Assembly: GCA_027451985.1 (NCBI GenBank)
Contig: DAIDHS010000004.1
Coordinates: 1 to 64,000, forward strand
Origin: Elusimicrobiota bacterium
Lineage (GTDB): Bacteria > Elusimicrobiota > Elusimicrobia > UBA1565 > UBA9628
Direction: 5' to 3'
DNA length: 64,000 bases
The translations under genes were made by a program, and so were the position numbers. Shown here piece by piece: positions 8,897 to 17,636 of the stretch (positions are counted from its first letter, which is position 1; the number at the start of each line of letters is the position of its first letter). Under the pieces are notes generated by a model, which made no database searches, was not told the DNA's origin, and worked only from the letters and a program-made list of their open reading frames with translations.

Positions 8897-10372
8897 ATGA
8901 CGGATCCGAGTCCCTGGTCCCGCCTGATCTTTCCCGGCTTCCACCTCGGCAAGGACTCCCCCGTCAAGGCGGAAAAGCTCGCGCGCGCGGGCGTGGGCGG
9001 CTTCTGTCTTTACGGCGGCAGCGCCGTGGAGACGGCATCGTTGACCGCGCGGCTGCAAAAAATCGCCGAGGGGCGCCTGGTGTTCTGCGCCGACTACGAG
9101 GACGGTTTGGCCTCGCAATGTCCCGACGGCACGGCGCTGGTTTCTAACATGGGGTTGGGCGCGGCAGGTTCGGCGGCTCTGGCCTTTGCCAAGGGGCGGA
9201 TCACGGGCCTGGAGTCCCGCGCCGCGGGCGTGCGCTGGGTCCTGGCGCCGGTGGTGGACTTGGCCGTGCGGTCCGAGAATCCCATCGTCAACATCCGCGC
9301 GTTCTCCTCCAATCCAGCCCTGACCGCGCGTCTGGCCCGCGCTTATCTCCAGGGTTTGAAGTCCGCAGGCGCCTCCGGGTGTCTCAAGCACTTCCCGGGC
9401 CACGGCGACACGGCCAAGGATTCCCATCTAGAACTGCCTAAGGTCCTAGCCGGCCGGGAGACGCTTTTGCGGCGCGACTTGGCGCCTTTTCGCGCGCTGG
9501 CCCGCTCGGCCGCAAGCGTGATGCTCGCGCACTTGAGCGTCCCGGCCCTTTCGAGGGAGGATCCGATTTCCTCGCTCTCGCCGCGCATCATCGCGCTGCT
9601 GCGGCAGACGCTTGGATTCAAAGGACTCATCGTGACCGACGCGCTGGACATGGGCGCAGCTGCGGGCCAGCGGGAACCGGGCTTGGCCGCCCTAGCCGCG
9701 GGTGCGGACGTGCTTCTGGTCCCCGCCGATCCCTGGGCGCTGATGCGCGGACTCAACGAGGGAATGTCCCGGCGTCCCGAACTCGAAGGCTTGGCGCGGA
9801 CGGCTTTGCGCCGAATCGATGGCGCCTTCGGCCGGCCGGAAAAAATCCGTAGCGCGGCGGAGATCCGGACGGCCTTAAAGCGCGTGGGCTGCGCCGCGCA
9901 CAAAAAATCGGCGGCGGCGATGGCTCAAGCTGCGATCACGGCGGTAGGCCGCAGCCCGGAACTTGGCCGCAAGATACGGTACTGGGAGCCGGACGAGATC
10001 TCTCCCGCGCGCTGGAAAGGGAGAACCTTCGTCGGCGCCCTGCGCGCCGCTGGTCTGCGCGTCCTAGCCGGGCCCCGCGTCGAAAAAGACGAGACGCTGC
10101 TCGTCGCCTCTTTTCTTTCTCCGCGCGCCTACACCGGGCGCATCGCCTACCCGAGCTCCCAAGCGCGGGCCGTCGCCCGGATCGCAGCGAGGGCAAAAAC
10201 GGCGGTTCTAATCTCCTTCGGAAGTCCTTTCGTCTTTGCCCAGTTCCGGCTGCCGGGCCTGTGCACCTTTTCCAAAAGCGCGGAAAGCCAGGAAGCCGCG
10301 GCTTTGGCGCTTCTCGGAAAAAGCCTGGCTCCGGGCCGCATGCCGGTGCGCCTTTCGCAGGATCAGCGGTAA
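8897..10372 (+). CDS. nagZ: Glycoside hydrolase family 3 beta-N-acetylglucosaminidase (NagZ)
   Basis: Removes terminal GlcNAc from GlcNAc-anhydroMurNAc or GlcNAc-MurNAc in peptidoglycan recycling. The GH3 barrel spans about residues 1-300. It has the NagZ-specific loop KHFPGHGDTAKDSH, carrying the Asp-His catalytic dyad, and the nucleophile motif VTDALDMGA. No signal peptide is present, so the enzyme should be cytoplasmic. At 491 residues it is longer than E. coli NagZ (about 340); the C-terminal 150 residues look like a reduced version of the second GH3 domain found in Gram-positive NagZ. It is convergent with namZ, overlapping by 10 bases. Confidence 0.88.
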   Translation: MTDPSPWSRLIFPGFHLGKDSPVKAEKLARAGVGGFCLYGGSAVETASLTARLQKIAEGRLVFCADYEDGLASQCPDGTALVSNMGLGAAGSAALAFAKGRITGLESRAAGVRWVLAPVVDLAVRSENPIVNIRAFSSNPALTARLARAYLQGLKSAGASGCLKHFPGHGDTAKDSHLELPKVLAGRETLLRRDLAPFRALARSAASVMLAHLSVPALSREDPISSLSPRIIALLRQTLGFKGLIVTDALDMGAAAGQREPGLAALAAGADVLLVPADPWALMRGLNEGMSRRPELEGLARTALRRIDGAFGRPEKIRSAAEIRTALKRVGCAAHKKSAAAMAQAAITAVGRSPELGRKIRYWEPDEISPARWKGRTFVGALRAAGLRVLAGPRVEKDETLLVASFLSPRAYTGRIAYPSSQARAVARIAARAKTAVLISFGSPFVFAQFRLPGLCTFSKSAESQEAAALALLGKSLAPGRMPVRLSQDQR

Positions 10373-11604
10373 AGCAAGTAGGGCCGGCGGATTTTGCGGA
10401 ACCAAGCGTCCTGGGCGTCGAACAACGCCTTTATCCGCGAGAGAGAATCGCCGCGCGCAAGCATCGCACGGAACTTGTCCGTCCCCATGGTCTCCTTGAG
10501 CTCTGGCCAGCGCCACTGAAAGTCCTTGGGCTCGCGCCGCATCAGGGACTGATTCAAGACCAGGAACACGTTGACCGGGCGCATGACCCGTCGATTCGTG
10601 ATGATGAGCCTGAGGCCGCGGCAGCGCTCGTCCTTATAGCGGCTGTCAACGGGCGTAAAATCCTGCCGGACGAAGCGGATTCCAGGCAGATGGGCCGCGC
10701 GCAAATCCTTCAGGGTGGCTTCGGCGTCGAGCCACGGCGCGCCGACTAATCGAAAGGGTTCTGGCGTGCCCCGGCCTACGGAAAGGTTGGACGATTCGAA
10801 TATCCCGATGCCGGGATAGAGTTCGGCGGCGTCCAAATCCGGGATGTTCGGCGAGGGCGGCGTCCAGGGAAGCCCGGTCTGGTCGTACCACATCGAGCGC
10901 CGCCACCCCGACATCGGAACGACCAGAAGTTGCGGGTCCTTCAACTCCGCGTTGTAGAAGCGGGCCATCTCGCCGGCGGTCAGGCCGTGGCGTACGGGCA
11001 CGGGGAAATACGACGTCGGGGACTCCCGGCGAAGGGACAAATCATCCAGAATCGGGCCTTCGATGATGTTGCCGGTGATGGGGTTGGGTCGGTCCAAGAC
11101 CACGAACTTGATGCCCGCTTTCTTGGCCGCTTCCATGGCCATGGCCATGGAAGCCAGGTAGGTGTAGAAGCGGGCGCCGACGTCCTGCACATCGAAGACC
11201 AGAGCGTCCACGCCAGCAAGGTCCCCGGGCGTCGGGCGCATGCCGGAGAAGCCCCCGCGGTAGAGGCTTAAAATCGGGATGGTCCGACCATCGAGCGTAA
11301 GCGCGGTCGATCTGATATGGGCGGCCTGCGTGTCGACGAAAAACCCATGCTCCAGCGCCAGGATCTCGACCAGTCTGACGCCGGACGCCGCGGCCAGAAC
11401 CTCCGCGGTGGAGCGGCCTTGGCCGTCCTGGCTGGTATGGTTGGCGATGAGGCCGACGCGCAGCCCTTTAAGCGGGGCGAAATTTTCGCGCTCGAGCACA
11501 TCGATGCCGAGAAGGACCTTCGGGCGGCGCGCCGGCGCAGCGTGCGCCGCGGATGGGAGCACGACGAGAACTGCCAGGGCGAAGGCGGCCAGGCGCGCCT
11601 CCAC
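10363..11604 (-). CDS. namZ: Exo-beta-N-acetylmuramidase NamZ (DUF1343 family), secreted
   Basis: A 413-residue protein with a signal peptide (residues 1-22) and the DUF1343 core. Landmarks are LKGLRVGLIANHTSQ, LEHGFF, DVQDVGARFYTYL, DRPNPITG, PVRHGLTAGEMA and GIFESSNLSVGRGTPEPF. Characterised members release MurNAc from the non-reducing end of glycan chains. With NagZ (GlcNAc removal) and MurQ (MurNAc-6P breakdown) it completes most of a wall-sugar salvage route. The start is a GTG at 11604, a little after the stop of the ABC-2/PilZ region that lies downstream of it on the map; these are separate same-strand genes. The signal peptide implies periplasmic action. Confidence 0.88.
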   Translation of the reverse strand: MEARLAAFALAVLVVLPSAAHAAPARRPKVLLGIDVLERENFAPLKGLRVGLIANHTSQDGQGRSTAEVLAAASGVRLVEILALEHGFFVDTQAAHIRSTALTLDGRTIPILSLYRGGFSGMRPTPGDLAGVDALVFDVQDVGARFYTYLASMAMAMEAAKKAGIKFVVLDRPNPITGNIIEGPILDDLSLRRESPTSYFPVPVRHGLTAGEMARFYNAELKDPQLLVVPMSGWRRSMWYDQTGLPWTPPSPNIPDLDAAELYPGIGIFESSNLSVGRGTPEPFRLVGAPWLDAEATLKDLRAAHLPGIRFVRQDFTPVDSRYKDERCRGLRLIITNRRVMRPVNVFLVLNQSLMRREPKDFQWRWPELKETMGTDKFRAMLARGDSLSRIKALFDAQDAWFRKIRRPYLLYR

Positions 11605-11605
11605 C

Positions 11606-12007
11606 TCAGACGCTCCAGTAATCGCGCGGGGGATCTTCGTCCTTGGGCGACTGCTCCATCCGGACCATATCGATGAAGCGCTTCAAGAGACCTTCCTGCC
11701 GGCCGGTCAAGGCGAAAGTGACGCCGTAACTGCGCTCGGGTTTGGGCGAGCGCGTGGGCGGGCCGGACTGCCAGACCACGACGCCCGAGAGCCTCAACCT
11801 GTCGCGCCGGCGCGCGTCCGGATCCCCGATTTCGAAATCATAAGTGGAGCCGCGGTGCAGGTCCACGAAGCAGGCCAGAGCCGCGCCTCCCATGCTGATG
11901 TCCGTCATGCGCCCCGTGCCCAAGGGATCCCGCGAGGATCCGGCATAGACGGCCACCGGAAGGTCGCATGGGAAGCGTTGATGGTAGCGCCTGAGAGGTC
12001 CGTTCAT
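11606..12007 (-). CDS. PilZ domain protein
   Basis: A 133-residue protein. RRYHQRFPCDLPVAVY near the N-terminus and GRMTDISMGGAAL after it match the RxxxR and (D/N)xSxxG c-di-GMP-binding motifs of PilZ domains (here R-x3-R as RYHQR). The C-terminal half is a beta barrel typical of the fold (YDFEIGDPDARRRDRLRLSGVVVW). The ATG at 12007 overlaps the upstream permease stop as TGATG, so it is coupled to the ABC-2 exporter genes. That suggests, as an inference, control of the exporter by c-di-GMP. A longer reading to 12151 runs inside the permease gene and is rejected. Confidence 0.85.
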   Translation of the reverse strand: MNGPLRRYHQRFPCDLPVAVYAGSSRDPLGTGRMTDISMGGAALACFVDLHRGSTYDFEIGDPDARRRDRLRLSGVVVWQSGPPTRSPKPERSYGVTFALTGRQEGLLKRFIDMVRMEQSPKDEDPPRDYWSV

Positions 12008-12801
12008 CAGCTTGAGGTGGAGGTGTACCGGCTGACCGAGTTTAGCCAATATCGACGGGAGAAGGCAAGAAGAGCCAGGCAGAAGCCGAAAGAATAGAGA
12101 ATCCAACCCGGAGAGAGGAGCCCCAAAAGGGCCTTGGCCGGGAACGTGCACATCACCGCCACAGGAACGACGAAGGTCAGCGCCCAGCGCGCGGTCGGGC
12201 CGTAGATATCAATGGGAAATTTTCCCATGAACATCAGATCACGGTAGACCCAGATGCTGTTCTCCAACTCCTGCGTGCGCACGGCCAAGCCCGCGACCAG
12301 CACGTGAATGGCCATGGCGATGGCCACGCCATTGAGGGTCAAGAGGGCGTAAAGCGCGTAGCGCGTCAAGCCCAGGGCCGGCAGGCGCTCGAAGACCATG
12401 GCAAGAAGCACGAAGACCGGCAGCGCCGTCGCCAAGTCCAGAAAGTCCAGCGTCGCGAACATGATGCGGAACAGGGGCGAGCAGGGTTGGACGAGGTAGA
12501 AGTCGAAGTCCCCATCCTCGACCACGCGGCGTGCGCCATAGATGCCGCGGAAAAAAATCTGCGCGCCTAGGTCCACCAGGTTGAAGGTGAGAAAAAACAG
12601 CGCCATGTCGGCGAGGTCGTAGCCGCCCAGCGTCTTCACGTTTCGGAAAATGGCGATGACGAAGGCGAAGAAGAACAGGATGCGGATGAGCTTGCCCAGC
12701 AGGAAACCGACCGAGCCCAGCGGGTGCGACATCTGGGCCTTGAGGCTCATCGAGGCCATGCGCGCCCATATCCGCAAGTAGCGAGAAAACGCCTTGGTCA
12801 T
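12007..12801 (-). CDS. ABC-2 type transporter permease (DUF990-like), second subunit
   Basis: A 264-residue integral membrane protein with about six hydrophobic segments, including GFLLGKLIRILFFFAFVIAI, MALFFLTFNLVDLG and a C-terminal ILYSFGFCLALLAF. The amphipathic loop FRGIYGARRVVEDGDFDFYLVQPCSP is the family hallmark: a G-x-Y/D region followed by LVQP or LVRP. The start at 12801 gives an ATGA overlap with the first permease. Together with the neighbouring permease and ATPase it forms an ABC-2 exporter; substrates of this subfamily are mostly unknown. PilZ follows with a TGATG overlap. Confidence 0.88.
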   Translation of the reverse strand: MTKAFSRYLRIWARMASMSLKAQMSHPLGSVGFLLGKLIRILFFFAFVIAIFRNVKTLGGYDLADMALFFLTFNLVDLGAQIFFRGIYGARRVVEDGDFDFYLVQPCSPLFRIMFATLDFLDLATALPVFVLLAMVFERLPALGLTRYALYALLTLNGVAIAMAIHVLVAGLAVRTQELENSIWVYRDLMFMGKFPIDIYGPTARWALTFVVPVAVMCTFPAKALLGLLSPGWILYSFGFCLALLAFSRRYWLNSVSRYTSTSS

Positions 12802-13592
12802 CCGCCCTCTGCGGCGTAGCTGCGCAGGCCCCGCCGCCACAGGCGCGAGGCCAAAAACAGCATGAGCGCGAGCCACGCGCCCTGGATGGCCAGCACCCGC
12901 AGCGTCTCACCCGGCCTAGCGCGCTCCAAGTAGATGTTGATGGGAAAAAATACTAGATATGGGAAGGGGCTTAGGTCCAGGATGTGGCGGATCGCTTTGG
13001 GCAGGACGTCCAAAGGAAAAAACGCGCCCGCGGCGAATTGAATGAAGAGCTCGAAGCAAAATAGAGGCCCGCCGGACTCGGAGGTCCAAAAGGCGAGCGC
13101 GCTGACCATGAACTCCATGATGAAGAACAAAAGCGAAGACATTGCCGTAGCCGCGGCAAAGCCCAGCCACGCGGCCCAATGCCGGGGAACGTAGAAGCGC
13201 GCGCGCACCAGCGCCGAGAAAATCGCAATCTCAATTATCGCGGAACCCAAGTAAACCGTCTTCTGCGCCAGGTCCAGGGAGAGGCTGTAGCCCCCGTAGC
13301 TCATGGGCCGCACTAGATAGGAAGAGATGCGCCCGCCCGAGATGTCGCCGACCAGTTCCCAGCCGCGGCCGGTCAGGACGAAAGAGCGCAGGACGTTAAT
13401 GGCCAGAACATAGCTGATCATCTGGGCCCTGGAGTAGCCGAAGAAGCCCTTATGCCCGTTCATGAGCGCGAGCCAGAAGTAGTAGAGGCTCGCCAGCACG
13501 GCCACGCCGCCCACGCGGTCCATGATCAAGGACGAGCGGCGCTGCAGGACGTTTTGCAGCGCGATGCCGTAGGCGGCCAGGTACTTGCGCAT
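12798..13592 (-). CDS. ABC-2 type transporter permease (DUF990-like), first subunit
   Basis: A 264-residue permease with about six membrane spans. The conserved loop GRGWELVGDISGGRISSYLVRPMSYGGY matches the G-x-L-x-x-Y-L-V-R-P signature shared with its partner. It starts 9 bases after the ATPase gene, and its stop overlaps the next permease. Paired, non-identical DUF990-type permeases with one ATPase are the standard arrangement. The substrate cannot be read from sequence; lipids, polysaccharides and drugs have all been proposed for relatives. Confidence 0.88.
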   Translation of the reverse strand: MRKYLAAYGIALQNVLQRRSSLIMDRVGGVAVLASLYYFWLALMNGHKGFFGYSRAQMISYVLAINVLRSFVLTGRGWELVGDISGGRISSYLVRPMSYGGYSLSLDLAQKTVYLGSAIIEIAIFSALVRARFYVPRHWAAWLGFAAATAMSSLLFFIMEFMVSALAFWTSESGGPLFCFELFIQFAAGAFFPLDVLPKAIRHILDLSPFPYLVFFPINIYLERARPGETLRVLAIQGAWLALMLFLASRLWRRGLRSYAAEGG

Positions 13593-13600
13593 GGCGCGGA

Positions 13601-14590
13601 TTAGGCCGCCGCGCCGCGTTCGGAGCCGGAGAAGATGCCGCGCACCACGTCGTCGACGGAAATCTCTTCGATGGTCAAGTCCTCGACCGGCCAGCGGCGC
13701 AGCAGTTCGGCCGCGCGCTCGGAGACCTTCTCGCGGGGGACCTCCAGAACCGCGCGCGTGCCGCCTTTGGAAACCACCGTCCCAAGGGAGGATAAATCGG
13801 CGGGCGACGGCCCCGCGAAGTCGACCCGGATGATTTTGTGCCGGGCGTGGCGCGCGACCAAATCCTTAAGCCCGCCGTCGTAGAGCAGGCGGCCCCGCTC
13901 GATGACCACGACGCGCGAGCAGAGTTCCGCGACGTCGTCCATGTTGTGGCTGGTCAGCAAAATGGTGGCCTTGTGCCGGGCGTTGTAGTCCTTGATAAAC
14001 GCTCGGATTTTTTTCTGCATGACGACGTCCAAGCCCAAGGTGGGCTCGTCCAAGAACAGCACGGAGGGCCGGTGCAGAAGCGCGGCGGCCAGTTCCGCGC
14101 GCATGCGCTGGCCCAAGGACAGCTTCTTGACCGGAACGTTCAGGCACTCGGACAAGTCCAAAAGATCCACTAGCTCGCCCAAGTTGCGGCGGTAGTCCTG
14201 CTCGGCGATGCCGTAGATGGCCTGGTTGAGGCGAAAGGTTTCCTGCGCGGGGATTTCCCACCACAGCTGGCTTCTTTGTCCCAGCACCAAGGAGAATCGT
14301 CGCTGCAGCTGAGCCTCCCGTCGCCAAGGGACATGCCCCAGCACCGTGGCCGCCCCCGAAGTCGGAGTCAGGAGACCCGAGAGCATCTTGAGCGTGGTCG
14401 TCTTGCCCGCGCCGTTGGCGCCCAAAAAACCCACCAACTCGCCCTCCTCAATAGAGAAGGACAATCCGTTGACCGCATGCACGAGGCGGATACGGCGGCT
14501 GAAAAAGGAACGCACGGCGTTTAAGAAACCGGGCTCCTTTTCCGGGGTCTCGTATACTTTGGTCAGGCCTTCAACTGCGATGCAGGGCAT
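13601..14590 (-). CDS. ABC-2 type transporter ATP-binding protein
   Basis: Energises the two permeases downstream. Walker A is GANGAGKTT, the Q-loop region is LVLGQRSQLWWE, the signature is LSLGQRMR, Walker B is SVLFLDEPTLGLD and the H-loop is LTSHN. A loop before Walker A (EPGFLNAVRSFFSRRIRLVHAVNG) is typical of this exporter subgroup, as is the C-terminal DUF4162-like tail. Two ATGs are possible. The one at 14590 is preferred over 14596 because TAGAAT at 14602-14597 is followed by exactly six bases and that ATG, as in other leaderless genes here. The length is 329 residues. Confidence 0.92.
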   Translation of the reverse strand: MPCIAVEGLTKVYETPEKEPGFLNAVRSFFSRRIRLVHAVNGLSFSIEEGELVGFLGANGAGKTTTLKMLSGLLTPTSGAATVLGHVPWRREAQLQRRFSLVLGQRSQLWWEIPAQETFRLNQAIYGIAEQDYRRNLGELVDLLDLSECLNVPVKKLSLGQRMRAELAAALLHRPSVLFLDEPTLGLDVVMQKKIRAFIKDYNARHKATILLTSHNMDDVAELCSRVVVIERGRLLYDGGLKDLVARHARHKIIRVDFAGPSPADLSSLGTVVSKGGTRAVLEVPREKVSERAAELLRRWPVEDLTIEEISVDDVVRGIFSGSERGAAA

Positions 14591-14596
14591 GGCCAT

Positions 14597-14602
14597 ATTC
14601 TA
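14597..14602 (-). promoter_or_regulatory. -10 box predicting a leaderless ABC exporter mRNA
   Basis: On the minus strand TAGAAT is followed by six bases (ATGGCC) and the ATG at 14590, so the upstream ATG at 14596 would not be transcribed. Confidence 0.5.
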
Positions 14603-14644
14603 CCAGTTGAGGAGGCCGGGCACGAAAAAACCGGCAGGAATTGC

Positions 14645-14650
14645 TATAAT
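14645..14650 (+). promoter_or_regulatory. -10 box of tRNA-Gly
   Basis: TATAAT ends 11 bases before the mature 5' end of tRNA-Gly, giving a short 5' leader for RNase P to remove. Confidence 0.5.
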
Positions 14651-14661
14651 CGAAAATCGAC

Positions 14662-14735
14662 GCGGGCGTGGTTCAATGGTAGAACAGGTCCTTGCCAAGG
14701 ATCAGACGGCGGTTCGATTCCGCTCGCCCGCTCCA
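14662..14735 (+). tRNA. tRNA-Gly (GCC)
   Basis: The acceptor stem GCGGGCG pairs with CGCCCGC, followed by discriminator T and an encoded CCA. The anticodon loop is TTGCCAA between CCT and AGG stem strands, so the anticodon is GCC. The T-loop GTTCGATTC is present. Only this one of the three tRNAs in the window carries its CCA in the DNA. Confidence 0.93.
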
Positions 14736-14746
14736 GATTTAATCGA

Positions 14747-15214
14747 ATGACCAAAGTCTCACAGCGCCTCATGATCAGCGCGCCGCGCGAGTCGGTGCGG
14801 CTTTACCTGCGCGACCTGGAAAACATCGTCAAGTACAGCCGGAGAATCCTGCAAGTCCAAGTCTCCTCGCAGAACGAGCAGCGGGCCGCCTTCGAAGCGT
14901 CCGGCCGCTGCCTTGGCCTGCCCTGGAAGTCCGCCTTCGAGGTCGAGTTTTCCGCCGACGGCGGCCTCGTATTCTCAGCGGCCAAAGGGCCGTTTGGGCT
15001 GGTTCGCGCGGCCTACCATCTCCGCCAAGTTTCCGGCGGGACCATCCTCTCCCATGATGAGGAATACCGTCTTCCCCTCCTTCTGCGCCCATTAAGCCCG
15101 GTGTTCCGGAAAATTCTTTCAGAGACGATGGAGTTGGAGCTGCGCGTCGTCAAAGAAGGCGCGGAGCGCTTAAACCGCCAGATCCGCCTGCGCGAAATCG
15201 AGTCGGCGCTTTAG
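14747..15214 (+). CDS. SRPBCC (START-like) superfamily protein
   Basis: A 155-residue protein with the layout of the SRPBCC ligand-binding fold. A first strand (VSQRLMISAPRESVRLYLRDLENIVKYS) is followed by several beta strands and a long C-terminal helix (RKILSETMELELRVVKEGAERLNRQ). Members bind hydrophobic ligands or act as cyclases and co-chaperones. Nothing in the sequence gives the ligand. It begins 11 bases after tRNA-Gly and is probably on the same transcript. Its stop is 4 bases from that of the convergent small membrane protein gene. Confidence 0.7.
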   Translation: MTKVSQRLMISAPRESVRLYLRDLENIVKYSRRILQVQVSSQNEQRAAFEASGRCLGLPWKSAFEVEFSADGGLVFSAAKGPFGLVRAAYHLRQVSGGTILSHDEEYRLPLLLRPLSPVFRKILSETMELELRVVKEGAERLNRQIRLREIESAL

Positions 15215-15218
15215 GCCG

Positions 15219-15419
15219 TCAACGCGGAGCGGGGGCGTCCAGCTCCCGCATTTTCTTCCGAGACAGGAGGAGCCAAACCAAGCCGCAGACCGCCGCCCTG
15301 GCCGCCGTCCCGGCCGCCGGACGCGAGAAGACGAACTTGGCCGCATAGAGCAGGAAGCCGGCCAGAAAGACCCAGCGTGCGGATAAGAGAATTCGCTTGA
15401 GCCTCGCCGCGCGCGTCAT
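15219..15419 (-). CDS. Small two-span membrane protein
   Basis: A 66-residue protein: basic N-terminus (MTRAARLKRILLSARW), one hydrophobic segment (VFLAGFLLYAAKFVF), a short Ala-rich loop, a second segment (AAVCGLVWLLL) and a basic tail. The ATG at 15419 is supported by AAGGA five bases upstream, located just after the stop of the DDAH-like gene at 15427, so the two are likely cotranscribed. No family is recognised. Confidence 0.55.
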   Translation of the reverse strand: MTRAARLKRILLSARWVFLAGFLLYAAKFVFSRPAAGTAARAAVCGLVWLLLSRKKMRELDAPAPR

Positions 15420-15426
15420 GACATCC

Positions 15427-16323
15427 TTAATATAGGAAGGTCTTAAGCCCGTAGACACTGCCGCCGGACTTGAGGAATTCGGAGGTGTCTACCTCTACGA
15501 CGTCCAGGCCCACCACGCCGATTTGCCGCGAGACCACGGGCGCGCCCTTGGGCACCAGCGCCGTGCGGGAATCTATAATGGCGGCGCTGCAGGCCAAAAC
15601 TCCGCCCGCTTCGGGCTCGGGGGCGCTCAAGACGACGGGGAAGACCTTCAGGATCATCTCCAGGCTCTCGCTGGAAAAAGCCGACGGGTAGATGAGCGCG
15701 GCCTCGGGAGTGAGCGGGCAAAAACAGGTATCAAGGTGGAAGAAACGCTCGTTGACCAGCTTCAAGGCCACCACGGGCGCGTCGAAAACTTTGGCCACTT
15801 CCTCATAGGACTCGATTTCCGAACGAAAACCGTAACCACCCCAAATGAGCCGCTTGGCAGGGTGCCACGCCGCGTCGCCCGCGCCCTCGAAATAGCGGGT
15901 CGAATCCTTGAAACGCGCGATGCGATAGCCGCGGCGCGTGAACCACTCCTCGTAGGCCGGGATTTCCCGGCGGCGCAGCGGGTGGCGCATTTGGCTCAGC
16001 AGGCAGGTCGGACGGCTCTCTCCGTCCAGGCCCGCCAAAGTCTGGTTGGAGCAGAAGGTCATCTCCTCCAAGCCCGGCACCGGTTGGATGAGCTCCACGG
16101 GCTTGCCCGCCGCTTCAAAGGCTTGGCGCAGCGCCTCCCACTGCCGGCGGGCCAGCGCCTTGTCGATGGTCCCGGCCTGGCCGACCATGTAGGGATTCTT
16201 CACGTCGAGCACGTCGAAATAGTCCGGCGGGCACAAAAGCACCGACTTTGGGTGTCCCATGTCGGGGCAGTTCTTGAGCGAAAAGCCGCGCAGGTCTGAG
16301 AGAGTTTTGTACACCCGGCTCAC
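15427..16323 (-). CDS. DDAH/amidinotransferase-fold protein lacking the catalytic Cys
   Basis: A 298-residue protein of the guanidino-modifying superfamily (dimethylarginine dimethylaminohydrolase type). Visible landmarks are VLLCPPDYFDVLDVKNPYM (residues 28-46), GLEEMTFCSNQTL, YFEGAGDAAWHP (Asp/Glu substrate site) and FFHLDTCFCPL with the catalytic-type His196. The final motif, normally GG-x-x-R-C, reads GGSVYGLKTF: residues 291-292 are Tyr-Gly where Arg-Cys is expected. The nucleophile is therefore absent, and the protein may be a binding protein or have another activity. The GTG at 16323 is chosen for its GTGA overlap with the upstream stop and a GGAG site 8 bases before it; GTG 16314 and ATG 16260 are alternatives. 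Confidence 0.8.
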   Translation of the reverse strand: MSRVYKTLSDLRGFSLKNCPDMGHPKSVLLCPPDYFDVLDVKNPYMVGQAGTIDKALARRQWEALRQAFEAAGKPVELIQPVPGLEEMTFCSNQTLAGLDGESRPTCLLSQMRHPLRRREIPAYEEWFTRRGYRIARFKDSTRYFEGAGDAAWHPAKRLIWGGYGFRSEIESYEEVAKVFDAPVVALKLVNERFFHLDTCFCPLTPEAALIYPSAFSSESLEMILKVFPVVLSAPEPEAGGVLACSAAIIDSRTALVPKGAPVVSRQIGVVGLDVVEVDTSEFLKSGGSVYGLKTFLY

Positions 16324-17618
16324 GCGAAGTTCTCCGAGACGAAGCGCACGGCGAACTCGTCCGCCGTGCCCGTCCAAGCCTCCCGGCTTTCCCCCGCCTT
16401 GACGGCCGAGATGCGCCCGCCGTCCTGGCTCCGCCAAATCCAGCAGTCGCCGAAGCCCAGATGCGCCCCATCCGCGCGGCCGTGCGCGATGGGCACGAAG
16501 ACCACAGGGCGTCCGGCGCGTCCCAGCACGCGCCCCGCGAGCAGGCGGAAAAACCGGCGGCGAAAAGGCGTTTCGCGGGAAAACTCGCCGGACAGGGCCG
16601 AAATGCGCGCGCCGATTTCCGCGCCGCCCAGGCCTGCGGCCCGCGCGGCGGCGCGCAGAACCGCCTCGGTCGGGGCGTCCAGACGGCCCGCCGCGCAGAC
16701 GCTCAAAGCCCCGGGATTTGCGCCCAAGCCCAGGGCCCTGGCTGCCGCCCATCCCGCACACAAAAAAGGGACGTTGCCGCGCAATGGGCTCTGGAGCGGC
16801 AGTTCCGCCTCGAAACGCCTGAAATCCTCGTTCTCCCGCAGGGAACGCAGCGCGGCGCCGGCTGGCGGCGCCTCGGGCCGGCGCCAAACGTCCTTCATCC
16901 ACTCGCGCAAGACGTAGAGCGCGCGGCCGGTGGCCGGCACGCCGCCCGAAAGAACCATGCCGACCTCGCCTCCGGCCTCCAGCCGCGAGAACAGTCTCCA
17001 TGGAAACAAATCCAGAGCCGTGCGCCGCATCAGGGAGGATTTCCCGAAATCCCGGCTCAGCGCCGTGCGGTAAACGCCCAAATGGGCCCCGGCGACGAAG
17101 CCGGCGTAGAGCCCTTCCTCGTGCAGAGCCAGCATGTCCAGAGCGAAATCATCGACGGCGATGACCAAGCGCGGCCGGCAAGGCGCCTGGCGCAAAAAAC
17201 ACAGGGCCAGCACGGCCTGGCGCACCATCTCCACGTTGAGCGCCGCGGCGTCGCCGTAAGCCGGCGGGTGCGAGAGCAGGGCCAGAAGGGCCGCGGGCTT
17301 GCCCGCGTCTTGCTCCGCCTGGCGGACGGCTTGGCGCGCGCGCTCCAGCGGCCGGCGCAGATCCTCGAAGGGCGTGTGGTAGTCCTTGGCGATGGCCCGG
17401 AACACGCGATCTTGGATGGAAAGCGCGGCGGAGGAGGGAATGCCCGCCAGAGCCCGCGAGACCAGAAACCCGGCGCCGGCGAAAATCGGCTGCAGGCCGC
17501 GCTTAGCCCAGGCCGGTTTGGCGGGCAGGGCGGTTCCGTTCTGCGAGGCTCGGGCGATCATTCCCATCAGGTCCCCGGGAATTTTCGCGGCGCCGTTGGC
17601 GCCGGGCTCCATTCGCAT
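16320..17618 (-). CDS. Hypothetical protein coupled to the DDAH-like gene
   Basis: A protein of about 432 residues with no recognised family and no signal peptide. Features include an Ala/Leu-rich helical N-terminal half with PLERARQAVRQAEQDAGKPAALLALLSHPPAYGDAAAL, a hydrophobic core LVIAVDDFALDML, and a C-terminal part with RPVVFVPIAHGRADGAHLGFGDCWIW. The stop overlaps the DDAH-like start as GTGA, so the two products probably work together. The ATG at 17618 is chosen because a TAGAAT box ends eight bases upstream; an earlier ATG at 17636 would lie inside or before that promoter. Confidence 0.65.
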   Translation of the reverse strand: MRMEPGANGAAKIPGDLMGMIARASQNGTALPAKPAWAKRGLQPIFAGAGFLVSRALAGIPSSAALSIQDRVFRAIAKDYHTPFEDLRRPLERARQAVRQAEQDAGKPAALLALLSHPPAYGDAAALNVEMVRQAVLALCFLRQAPCRPRLVIAVDDFALDMLALHEEGLYAGFVAGAHLGVYRTALSRDFGKSSLMRRTALDLFPWRLFSRLEAGGEVGMVLSGGVPATGRALYVLREWMKDVWRRPEAPPAGAALRSLRENEDFRRFEAELPLQSPLRGNVPFLCAGWAAARALGLGANPGALSVCAAGRLDAPTEAVLRAAARAAGLGGAEIGARISALSGEFSRETPFRRRFFRLLAGRVLGRAGRPVVFVPIAHGRADGAHLGFGDCWIWRSQDGGRISAVKAGESREAWTGTADEFAVRFVSENFA

Positions 17619-17626
17619 GATGGCGA

Positions 17627-17636
17627 ATTCTAACAT
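17627..17636. promoter_or_regulatory. Overlapping divergent -10 boxes
   Basis: TAGAAT on the minus strand (17632-17627) serves the gene starting at 17618. TAACAT on the plus strand (17631-17636) precedes the ATG at 17640. Only 21 bases separate the two start codons, so polymerase binding on one strand should exclude the other. Confidence 0.4.

Follow-up and report, generated by a model that had tools for sequence, protein, structure and literature searches.

A putative pseudoenzyme of the arginine dihydrolase (ArgZ/AgrE) type in Elusimicrobiota and the recurrent loss of its nucleophilic cysteine

The locus

The window, i.e. the whole stretch of DNA that was analysed, comprises the first 64,000 nucleotides of contig DAIDHS010000004.1 from an Elusimicrobiota metagenome assembly. 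The genus of the window genome is called g1 hereafter, and two g1 genomes were compared, the window genome and its congener G001. Two overlapping genes on the reverse strand of the window and their features are listed below.

16320-17636 (-), gene upstream of the ArgZ-like gene, coding for 438 aa, tentatively of acyltransferase type (fold class GPAT/PatA/LpxM) and a candidate partner on the basis of linkage and a structural model
16320-16323 (-), GTGA overlap of 4 nt, joining the stop of the upstream gene and the start of the ArgZ-like gene in the sequence
15427-16323 (-), gene of the putative ArgZ-like pseudoenzyme, 298 aa, GTG start and TAA stop, from the ORF and its translation
16267-16311 (-), N-terminal arm, residues 5-19 (Y-x5-L-x-GFS-x-K-x-C), from in-group conservation
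15736-15738 (-), codon of His196, the retained catalytic His, from the alignment, with the position computed from the ORF coordinates
15448-15450 (-), GGG codon of Gly292 replacing the nucleophilic Cys, residue and codon identical in G001

A preliminary description of this DNA had reported a DDAH-like protein without its nucleophilic Cys. Both the open reading frame and the missing Cys are borne out, and the numbering of His196, Cys200 and Cys202 agrees with the translation. The protein ends in LKSGGSVYGLKTFLY, which includes G287 G288 S289 V290 Y291 G292. Gly292 falls into a column that holds Cys in 28 of 43 in-group rows and in 15 of 15 out-group rows of our alignment, and it corresponds to Cys264 of ArgZ/AgrE when aligned to PDB chains (the chains matched carry C264 mutations according to their titles). 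The tail LKTFLY can be aligned with LKMFLY, which follows the Cys in relatives, so there is no frameshift. Tyr291 had been taken for a lost Arg; this was a misreading, because Cys-bearing in-group rows carry Tyr or Phe at the same position.

The window genome and its named close relatives are metagenome assemblies, and an assembly or sequencing artefact at the Cys codon might be suspected. The congener also carries Gly with a GGG codon, on its own contig and with adjoining synonymous differences (GTCTACGGGCTTAAG vs GTCTACGGGCTCAAG), and the two g1 copies share 95% protein identity at a dS of 0.43. A base error is therefore unlikely, and an assembly error would have had to happen twice in separate assemblies. 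All six rows of genus g11 and all three rows of genus g14 lack the Cys as well. We regard an artefact as having a negligible probability.

Directly after the ArgZ-like gene lies an ORF of 66 aa (15219-15419, -) with a hydrophobic middle by eye and no family over cut-off, which is perhaps a third gene of the operon. Beyond this small ORF, positions 12007-15214 hold an ABC exporter set (a PF00005 ATPase and, by appearance, two membrane proteins) as well as an SRPBCC-like gene (14747-15214, PF10604 below cut-off). Genes of a glycoside hydrolase family 3 protein and a NamZ exo-muramidase (Pfam) adjoin at 8897-10372 (+) and 10363-11604 (-), convergent and with overlapping ends. In several genera the ArgZ-like gene is directly followed by a gene for some 300 aa whose start looks signal-like (L068:7574-8470, L073:7211-8101, L081:7076-7993). 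Two of its members gave no Pfam match, and it was not seen after the ArgZ-like gene in the window.

Family and fold

Among the NCBIfam models, arginine dihydrolase NF052232 ranks first with 187.8 bits (E 2.1e-55), less than the 450 bits that its cut-off demands, and six Cys-bearing relatives tested against the same model likewise stay under this value. The cut-offs of the NCBIfam dimethylargininase models were not reached by the ArgZ-like protein. Pfam PF19420 matches with 34.4 bits against a gathering cut-off of 23, and the best PDB sequence matches are AgrE (Alr4995) and ArgZ (Sll1336). An AlphaFold2 model built from 16 aligned sequences has a mean pLDDT of 94. The structure closest to it is ArgZ 6juz (Z 40.3, rmsd 1.2 Å over 265 residues, 35% identity); PaDDAH 1h70 follows with Z 32.5 and human DDAH-1 with about Z 30. 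Judged by this model, the protein is closest to arginine dihydrolase (ArgZ/AgrE) and not to DDAH proper. The earlier label "DDAH-like" is thus right as to the pentein fold and the PF19420 match and needs correction as to the nearest known family. In a profile search of the genome assembly, PF19420 was matched by no further protein and PF02274 (ADI) by none; a weak match on contig C2 was rejected as a second copy, being short and antisense to a longer open frame.

Recurrent loss of the cysteine

An ArgZ-like match was found in 33 of the 44 genomes of the family and in 53 of the 340 genomes of the phylum. The in-group consists of 43 orthologues, one per strongly matching genome, from three families (f1-f3) of one Elusimicrobiota order. 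The out-group, a small and non-random sample, comprises 15 rows: nine loci from other phyla, five Elusimicrobiota rows of the same class but different families, and a distant paralogue carried by G039. All alignment rows were trimmed at the N-terminus to the tblastn match. L046 (a duplicate of L034) and L044, L045 and L047-L052 (contigs found again, as judged from their length and position) were dropped from alignment and tree; weak matches (L027, L028 and others, G226, G225, G202, G170, G199) were dropped as well. L063 (partial, with Cys) stands outside the alignment, L099 (G057, partial, Ser) was counted and left outside the tree, and L053 represents G048.

The preliminary description had named the presence of Cys in all orthologues, together with a sequence error near 15455 in raw reads, as a result that would speak against it. 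As far as the orthologues go, such is not the case, as 15 of the 43 in-group rows lack the residue and have Gly, Ala, Ser, Asp or a stop in its column. Gly is found in g1 (2) and g19 (1), Ala in g2 (1) and Ser in g15 (1); g11 has Ala (4), Asp (1) and Ser (1, the partial G057), and g14 has Ala (2) and Gly (1). In G044 the codon is an in-frame TGA.

For the tree, 57 rows were used, G057 was excluded and the columns from residue 284 onward were removed. On this tree, in which 9 of 54 inner branches are open and several out-group branches are long, the Cys label changes 7 times; 5 of these changes are forced by well-supported (starred) branches, and 6-7 changes are counted over the bootstrap trees. 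With shuffled labels the average was about 12.5 changes, and 0 of 500 shuffles got down to 7; related rows thus tend to share the label. The count itself has no direction. Since all out-group rows have Cys, we read the changes as losses, of which, on sequence comparison, there appear to be at least five separate ones.

The copy in G044 (L029, G044:C25:6660-7547) has its in-frame TGA exactly at the catalytic Cys codon, followed by the family-like tail LKQNLW. Selenocysteine was rejected as a likely reading, because SelB (TIGR00475, cut-off 242 bits) exceeds its cut-off in none of the 44 family genomes (best in G044 78.8 bits; over cut-off in 2 of 14 controls). The tRNA-Sec model (RF01852, cut-off 47) is non-discriminating: it is reached in 17 of 44 family genomes and in 5 of 14 controls, the best value listed for G044 being 46.5 bits. 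The TGA is taken as a stop or an assembly error and, if a stop, would be another way to be without the Cys.

Active-site residues and the N-terminal arm

His196 and the substrate acids had been described as retained. This is true for His196; the substrate-side acid D87 of the family is Glu here, a conservative change. Within the in-group, departures occur at D87 (6/42), N93 (4/42), R167 (3/43), H196 (3/43) and D198 (3/43), all of them in Cys-less rows, and the 28 Cys rows show zero departures at these five positions. At E146, one Cys row (G052) carries Asp, and Ala is found in the Cys-less G057; D150 is invariant in 43 of 43 rows. In the Cys-bearing out-group row G184, Asp replaces N93 and Ala replaces D198; outside the in-group such changes therefore need no loss of Cys.

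In both g1 genomes, 5 of the 73 positions that are invariant among Cys rows differ (M30L, D87E, V209A, H267Q and C292G). This count is not unusual, since leaving out one Cys genus at a time gives 0 to 7 departures; g14, g2 and g19 depart at 12, 9 and 6 such positions. H196, E146, D150, N93, R167 and D198 are all retained in g1 and g15, and g11 retains them except for R167F in G021 and E146A, R167Y and H196R in the partial G057. In g2, g14 and g19 it is H196, D198 or N93 themselves that are lost.

The retained residues in g1 and g15, and for the most part in g11, would suit a changed chemistry in which a Cys-free active site works, e.g. by His/Asp-assisted direct hydrolysis or by another reaction on a bound guanidino ligand. 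We consider such a scenario very improbable. Different lineages, and members of a single lineage, have put different residues (G, A, S, D) or a stop in the place of the Cys, a new polar residue does not consistently appear there, and H196, D198 or N93 are gone in the three genera just named. The "new chemistry" offered in the preliminary description is hence unsupported, because the replacing residues differ. Its second idea, a substitution by Cys200 or Cys202 of the DTCFC motif, was rejected as unlikely: ArgZ and AgrE carry the same HLDTCFCPL motif yet use Cys264, and neither position is constant among the out-group rows with Cys.

In the N-terminal arm, GFS at residues 13-15 is present in 40 of 40 in-group rows that reach the arm and in 0 of 5 such out-group rows (only 5 of the 15 trimmed out-group rows reach this region). 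Y5, L11, G13, F14, S15, K17 and C19 are conserved to 100% in the Cys-less rows. ArgZ alignments start at residue 26-28 of the window protein, after the arm. The arm is kept more strictly than the catalytic Cys; other positions such as D150 are equally invariant, so the arm is not unique. If out-group gaps are counted as differences, 30 positions are typical of the in-group and uncommon in the out-group, 20 of them within residues 5-22, 188-191 and 205-236.

Selection on the Cys-less gene

All dN/dS values are simple pairwise Nei-Gojobori estimates. The ArgZ-like genes of the g1 pair differ by 72 synonymous and 15 non-synonymous changes (dN/dS 0.052). The corresponding values for the upstream gene, a 454-aa neighbour and ThyX are 0.165, 0.168 and 0.144, and the Cys-less gene is therefore the most constrained of the four genes compared. 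Elsewhere, dN/dS is 0.04-0.19 in seven Cys-bearing pairs, 0.07-0.24 in five g11 pairs, 0.24-0.33 in three g14 pairs and 0.20-0.24 in three pairs of G044 with Cys-bearing rows; the pair G006/G004 gave no ratio, as dS was saturated. Divided by the dN of the upstream gene, the dN of the ArgZ-like gene amounts to 0.18-0.72 for six Cys-less pairs, 0.31-0.48 for three Cys pairs and 0.33 for one mixed pair (Cys vs Ser). The matched part is free of in-frame stops in 14 of the 15 Cys-less rows. As far as sequences can tell, a catalytic residue has been lost while the gene appears to remain under purifying selection, which is how a pseudoenzyme is recognized.

These data also bear on the scenario of a relaxed, decaying gene, in which the enzyme became dispensable in several lineages and the Cys was among the first residues to be lost. 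Indeed, 11 of the 44 family genomes have no match (including G017 in the otherwise Cys-less genus g11), the copy in G044 has a stop at the Cys codon, and pocket residues depart in Cys-less rows. MAG incompleteness may account for some of the absences, however, and the strong excess of synonymous changes in the g1 pair, the near absence of in-frame stops, the small number of g1 departures from the Cys-row-invariant positions and the invariant arm are all at odds with decay, which we find improbable. The earlier suggestion of a non-catalytic protein is instead well supported at the sequence level by the repeated loss of Cys, by pocket changes that, within the in-group, occur in Cys-less rows only, and by the persisting constraint.

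The overlapping upstream gene

In 38 of the 43 genomes the ArgZ-like gene is preceded, in the same orientation, by a homologue of the upstream gene, in 35 of them within 200 nt. Five genomes have no such homologue in place. In four of these (G019, G048, G056, G057) the ArgZ-like gene lies at a contig end, and in G021, whose copy is Cys-less with the arm present, the upstream gene was not found. Conversely, the upstream gene stands alone in five genomes of the order (G010, G016, G017, G022, G026), in G022 and G026 at a contig end, and other families have distant homologues of it that also lack an ArgZ-like companion. No remnants of the ArgZ-like gene were found beside lone upstream homologues in five loci. 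Two loci of genus g10 share a similar small gene on the opposite strand after the lone upstream gene; a third locus (G017) does not. No upstream homologue was detected near the nine out-group loci of other phyla (flanks up to 6 kb), and by eye no neighbour gene is common to homologues elsewhere among eight loci. In G059:C63 (L110), from another family of the class, distant relatives of the two genes share a strand about 3.3 kb apart, with the Cys present; this pairing is possibly an older linkage of the two genes.

The nature of the upstream protein can be stated only tentatively. No Pfam family was convincing (six families had a match in a single member each, out of 21, best E 0.0084), and no PDB sequence matched convincingly (best E 0.64). 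Its AlphaFold2 model has a pLDDT of 66.7, a middling confidence. In the structural comparison GPAT1 ranks first (Z 8.0, rmsd 4.7 over 213 residues), followed by two GPATs, PatA and LpxM, all of them acyltransferases of one superfamily; a Z of about 8 can, as the tool warns, reflect a common fold arrangement. Further down the ranking, after the acyltransferases, come matches to phosphoenolpyruvate carboxylase (Z up to 5.9, 108 residues), and Foldseek alone returned nothing at E 0.001. All 21 aligned rows share His123 and Gly231-Gly232, which are, in our own reading, acyltransferase motifs. On this model the protein may tentatively be called acyltransferase-like.

A proposed pseudoenzyme with a binding or regulatory role

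Pentein hydrolases of the arginine dihydrolase/DDAH kind use the Cys in question as their nucleophile. For DDAH this is stated in the publication on RESC5 (PMC9980740). A protein without the nucleophile should form no covalent Cys-amidino intermediate, so that, as we infer from the known mechanism, arginine hydrolysis should be absent. According to their PDB titles, crystals of ArgZ C264S with substrate and of AgrE C264A with L-arginine exist, which suggests that the Cys is dispensable for holding arginine in this fold. On sequence comparison, the g1 protein looks like such a C264 mutant with D87E in addition. By analogy, and given its nearly intact pocket, guanidine binding as proposed in the preliminary description is plausible for the window protein, although D87E could weaken it.

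We propose that the protein is a recurrent pseudoenzyme derived from an arginine dihydrolase (an ArgZ/AgrE-type pentein) with a binding or regulatory role, possibly exerted on the protein of the upstream gene, and give this reading a probability of about 60%. The pocket would hold arginine or a related guanidino ligand without turnover, and the fold together with the lineage-specific N-terminal arm would act on a protein partner. The weakest link is the identity of this partner, most likely the tentatively acyltransferase-like protein of the overlapping gene; the direction of the regulation, from the pseudoenzyme to its partner, we likewise infer. We judge a pseudoenzyme acting on a co-encoded protein most likely because the likeness to the mutants, the constraint, the arm and the gene overlap coincide. 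Linkage and constraint alone would not establish a physical partner, as the upstream gene occurs without the ArgZ-like gene in five genomes and was not found in G021, which has a Cys-less copy. The dN/dS of 0.24-0.33 in g14 and the middling confidence of the acyltransferase model count against our proposal.

Since the pockets of g14, g19 and g2 are altered, ligand binding is not common to all Cys-less proteins; with a ligand role doubtful in these genera, the function common to all may be protein contact. This leads to a pure scaffold, which overlaps with our proposal minus the ligand and would serve protein-protein contact only, as in RESC5 or IF6. The unchanged arm in the three genera fits such a scaffold, and so does RESC5 itself, for which thermal shift assays gave no binding of citrulline or of dimethylarginine (PMC9980740). 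The almost unchanged pocket of g1 is something a pure scaffold need not show, and we consider a scaffold possible though unlikely.

A bolder version of the binding and regulatory role would be an arginine sensor that binds without hydrolysis and controls a co-encoded lipid acyltransferase via the arm, clade-wide in Elusimicrobiota. We treat this as a speculation with rather poor prospects. If true, membrane lipid synthesis would follow nitrogen status, and catalysis, dispensable once the sensor role had taken over, would for this reason have disappeared at least five times in parallel.

Individual pseudoenzymes of this fold were already on record. Here, Cys-bearing and Cys-less members of one small protein family stand side by side, with at least five apparent losses at different stages of decay and with persisting constraint. 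They offer a natural series for how enzymes become non-catalytic and what function outlasts catalysis. Our results are also a warning that profile hits alone should not lead to the annotation of such genes as arginine dihydrolase or DDAH.

Comparison with known systems

The window protein has the fold and the HLDTCFCPL and FEGAGD motifs in common with the dihydrolase domain of ArgZ (Synechocystis Sll1336) and AgrE (Anabaena Alr4995), and its Asn93 matches Asn71 of ArgZ, a position at which Asn has a role in catalysis. In contrast to ArgZ/AgrE, it has neither the nucleophilic Cys nor the ornithine cyclodeaminase domain, it carries the extra N-terminal arm, and its profile score lies far under the NF052232 cut-off. 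The DDAH family (PF19420) shares the pentein fold but is more distant than ArgZ. Of the Cys-His-acid catalytic set of DDAH, His196 is kept and the Cys is absent in the window protein; where the latter has Asn, DDAH has Asp.

A pentein fold without the catalytic Cys is likewise found in RESC5 of the trypanosome RNA editing complex (structural rows with Z 21.5-23.8). RESC5 is described as a DDAH-fold protein in which Ala-Pro replaces Cys-His and which is non-catalytic and works in a complex, and its authors compare it to IF6, a non-enzymatic protein of related fold (PMC9980740). RESC5 is eukaryotic, shares 17% identity and has also lost the His, whereas the g1 protein keeps the His and most of the pocket. 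Publications on Cys-less arginine dihydrolases were not among the matches listed in the open-access literature and may exist elsewhere. With RESC5, a Cys-less protein of the DDAH fold was already known; what is unusual in the present case is how often the loss has occurred in parallel within one bacterial order under continued constraint.
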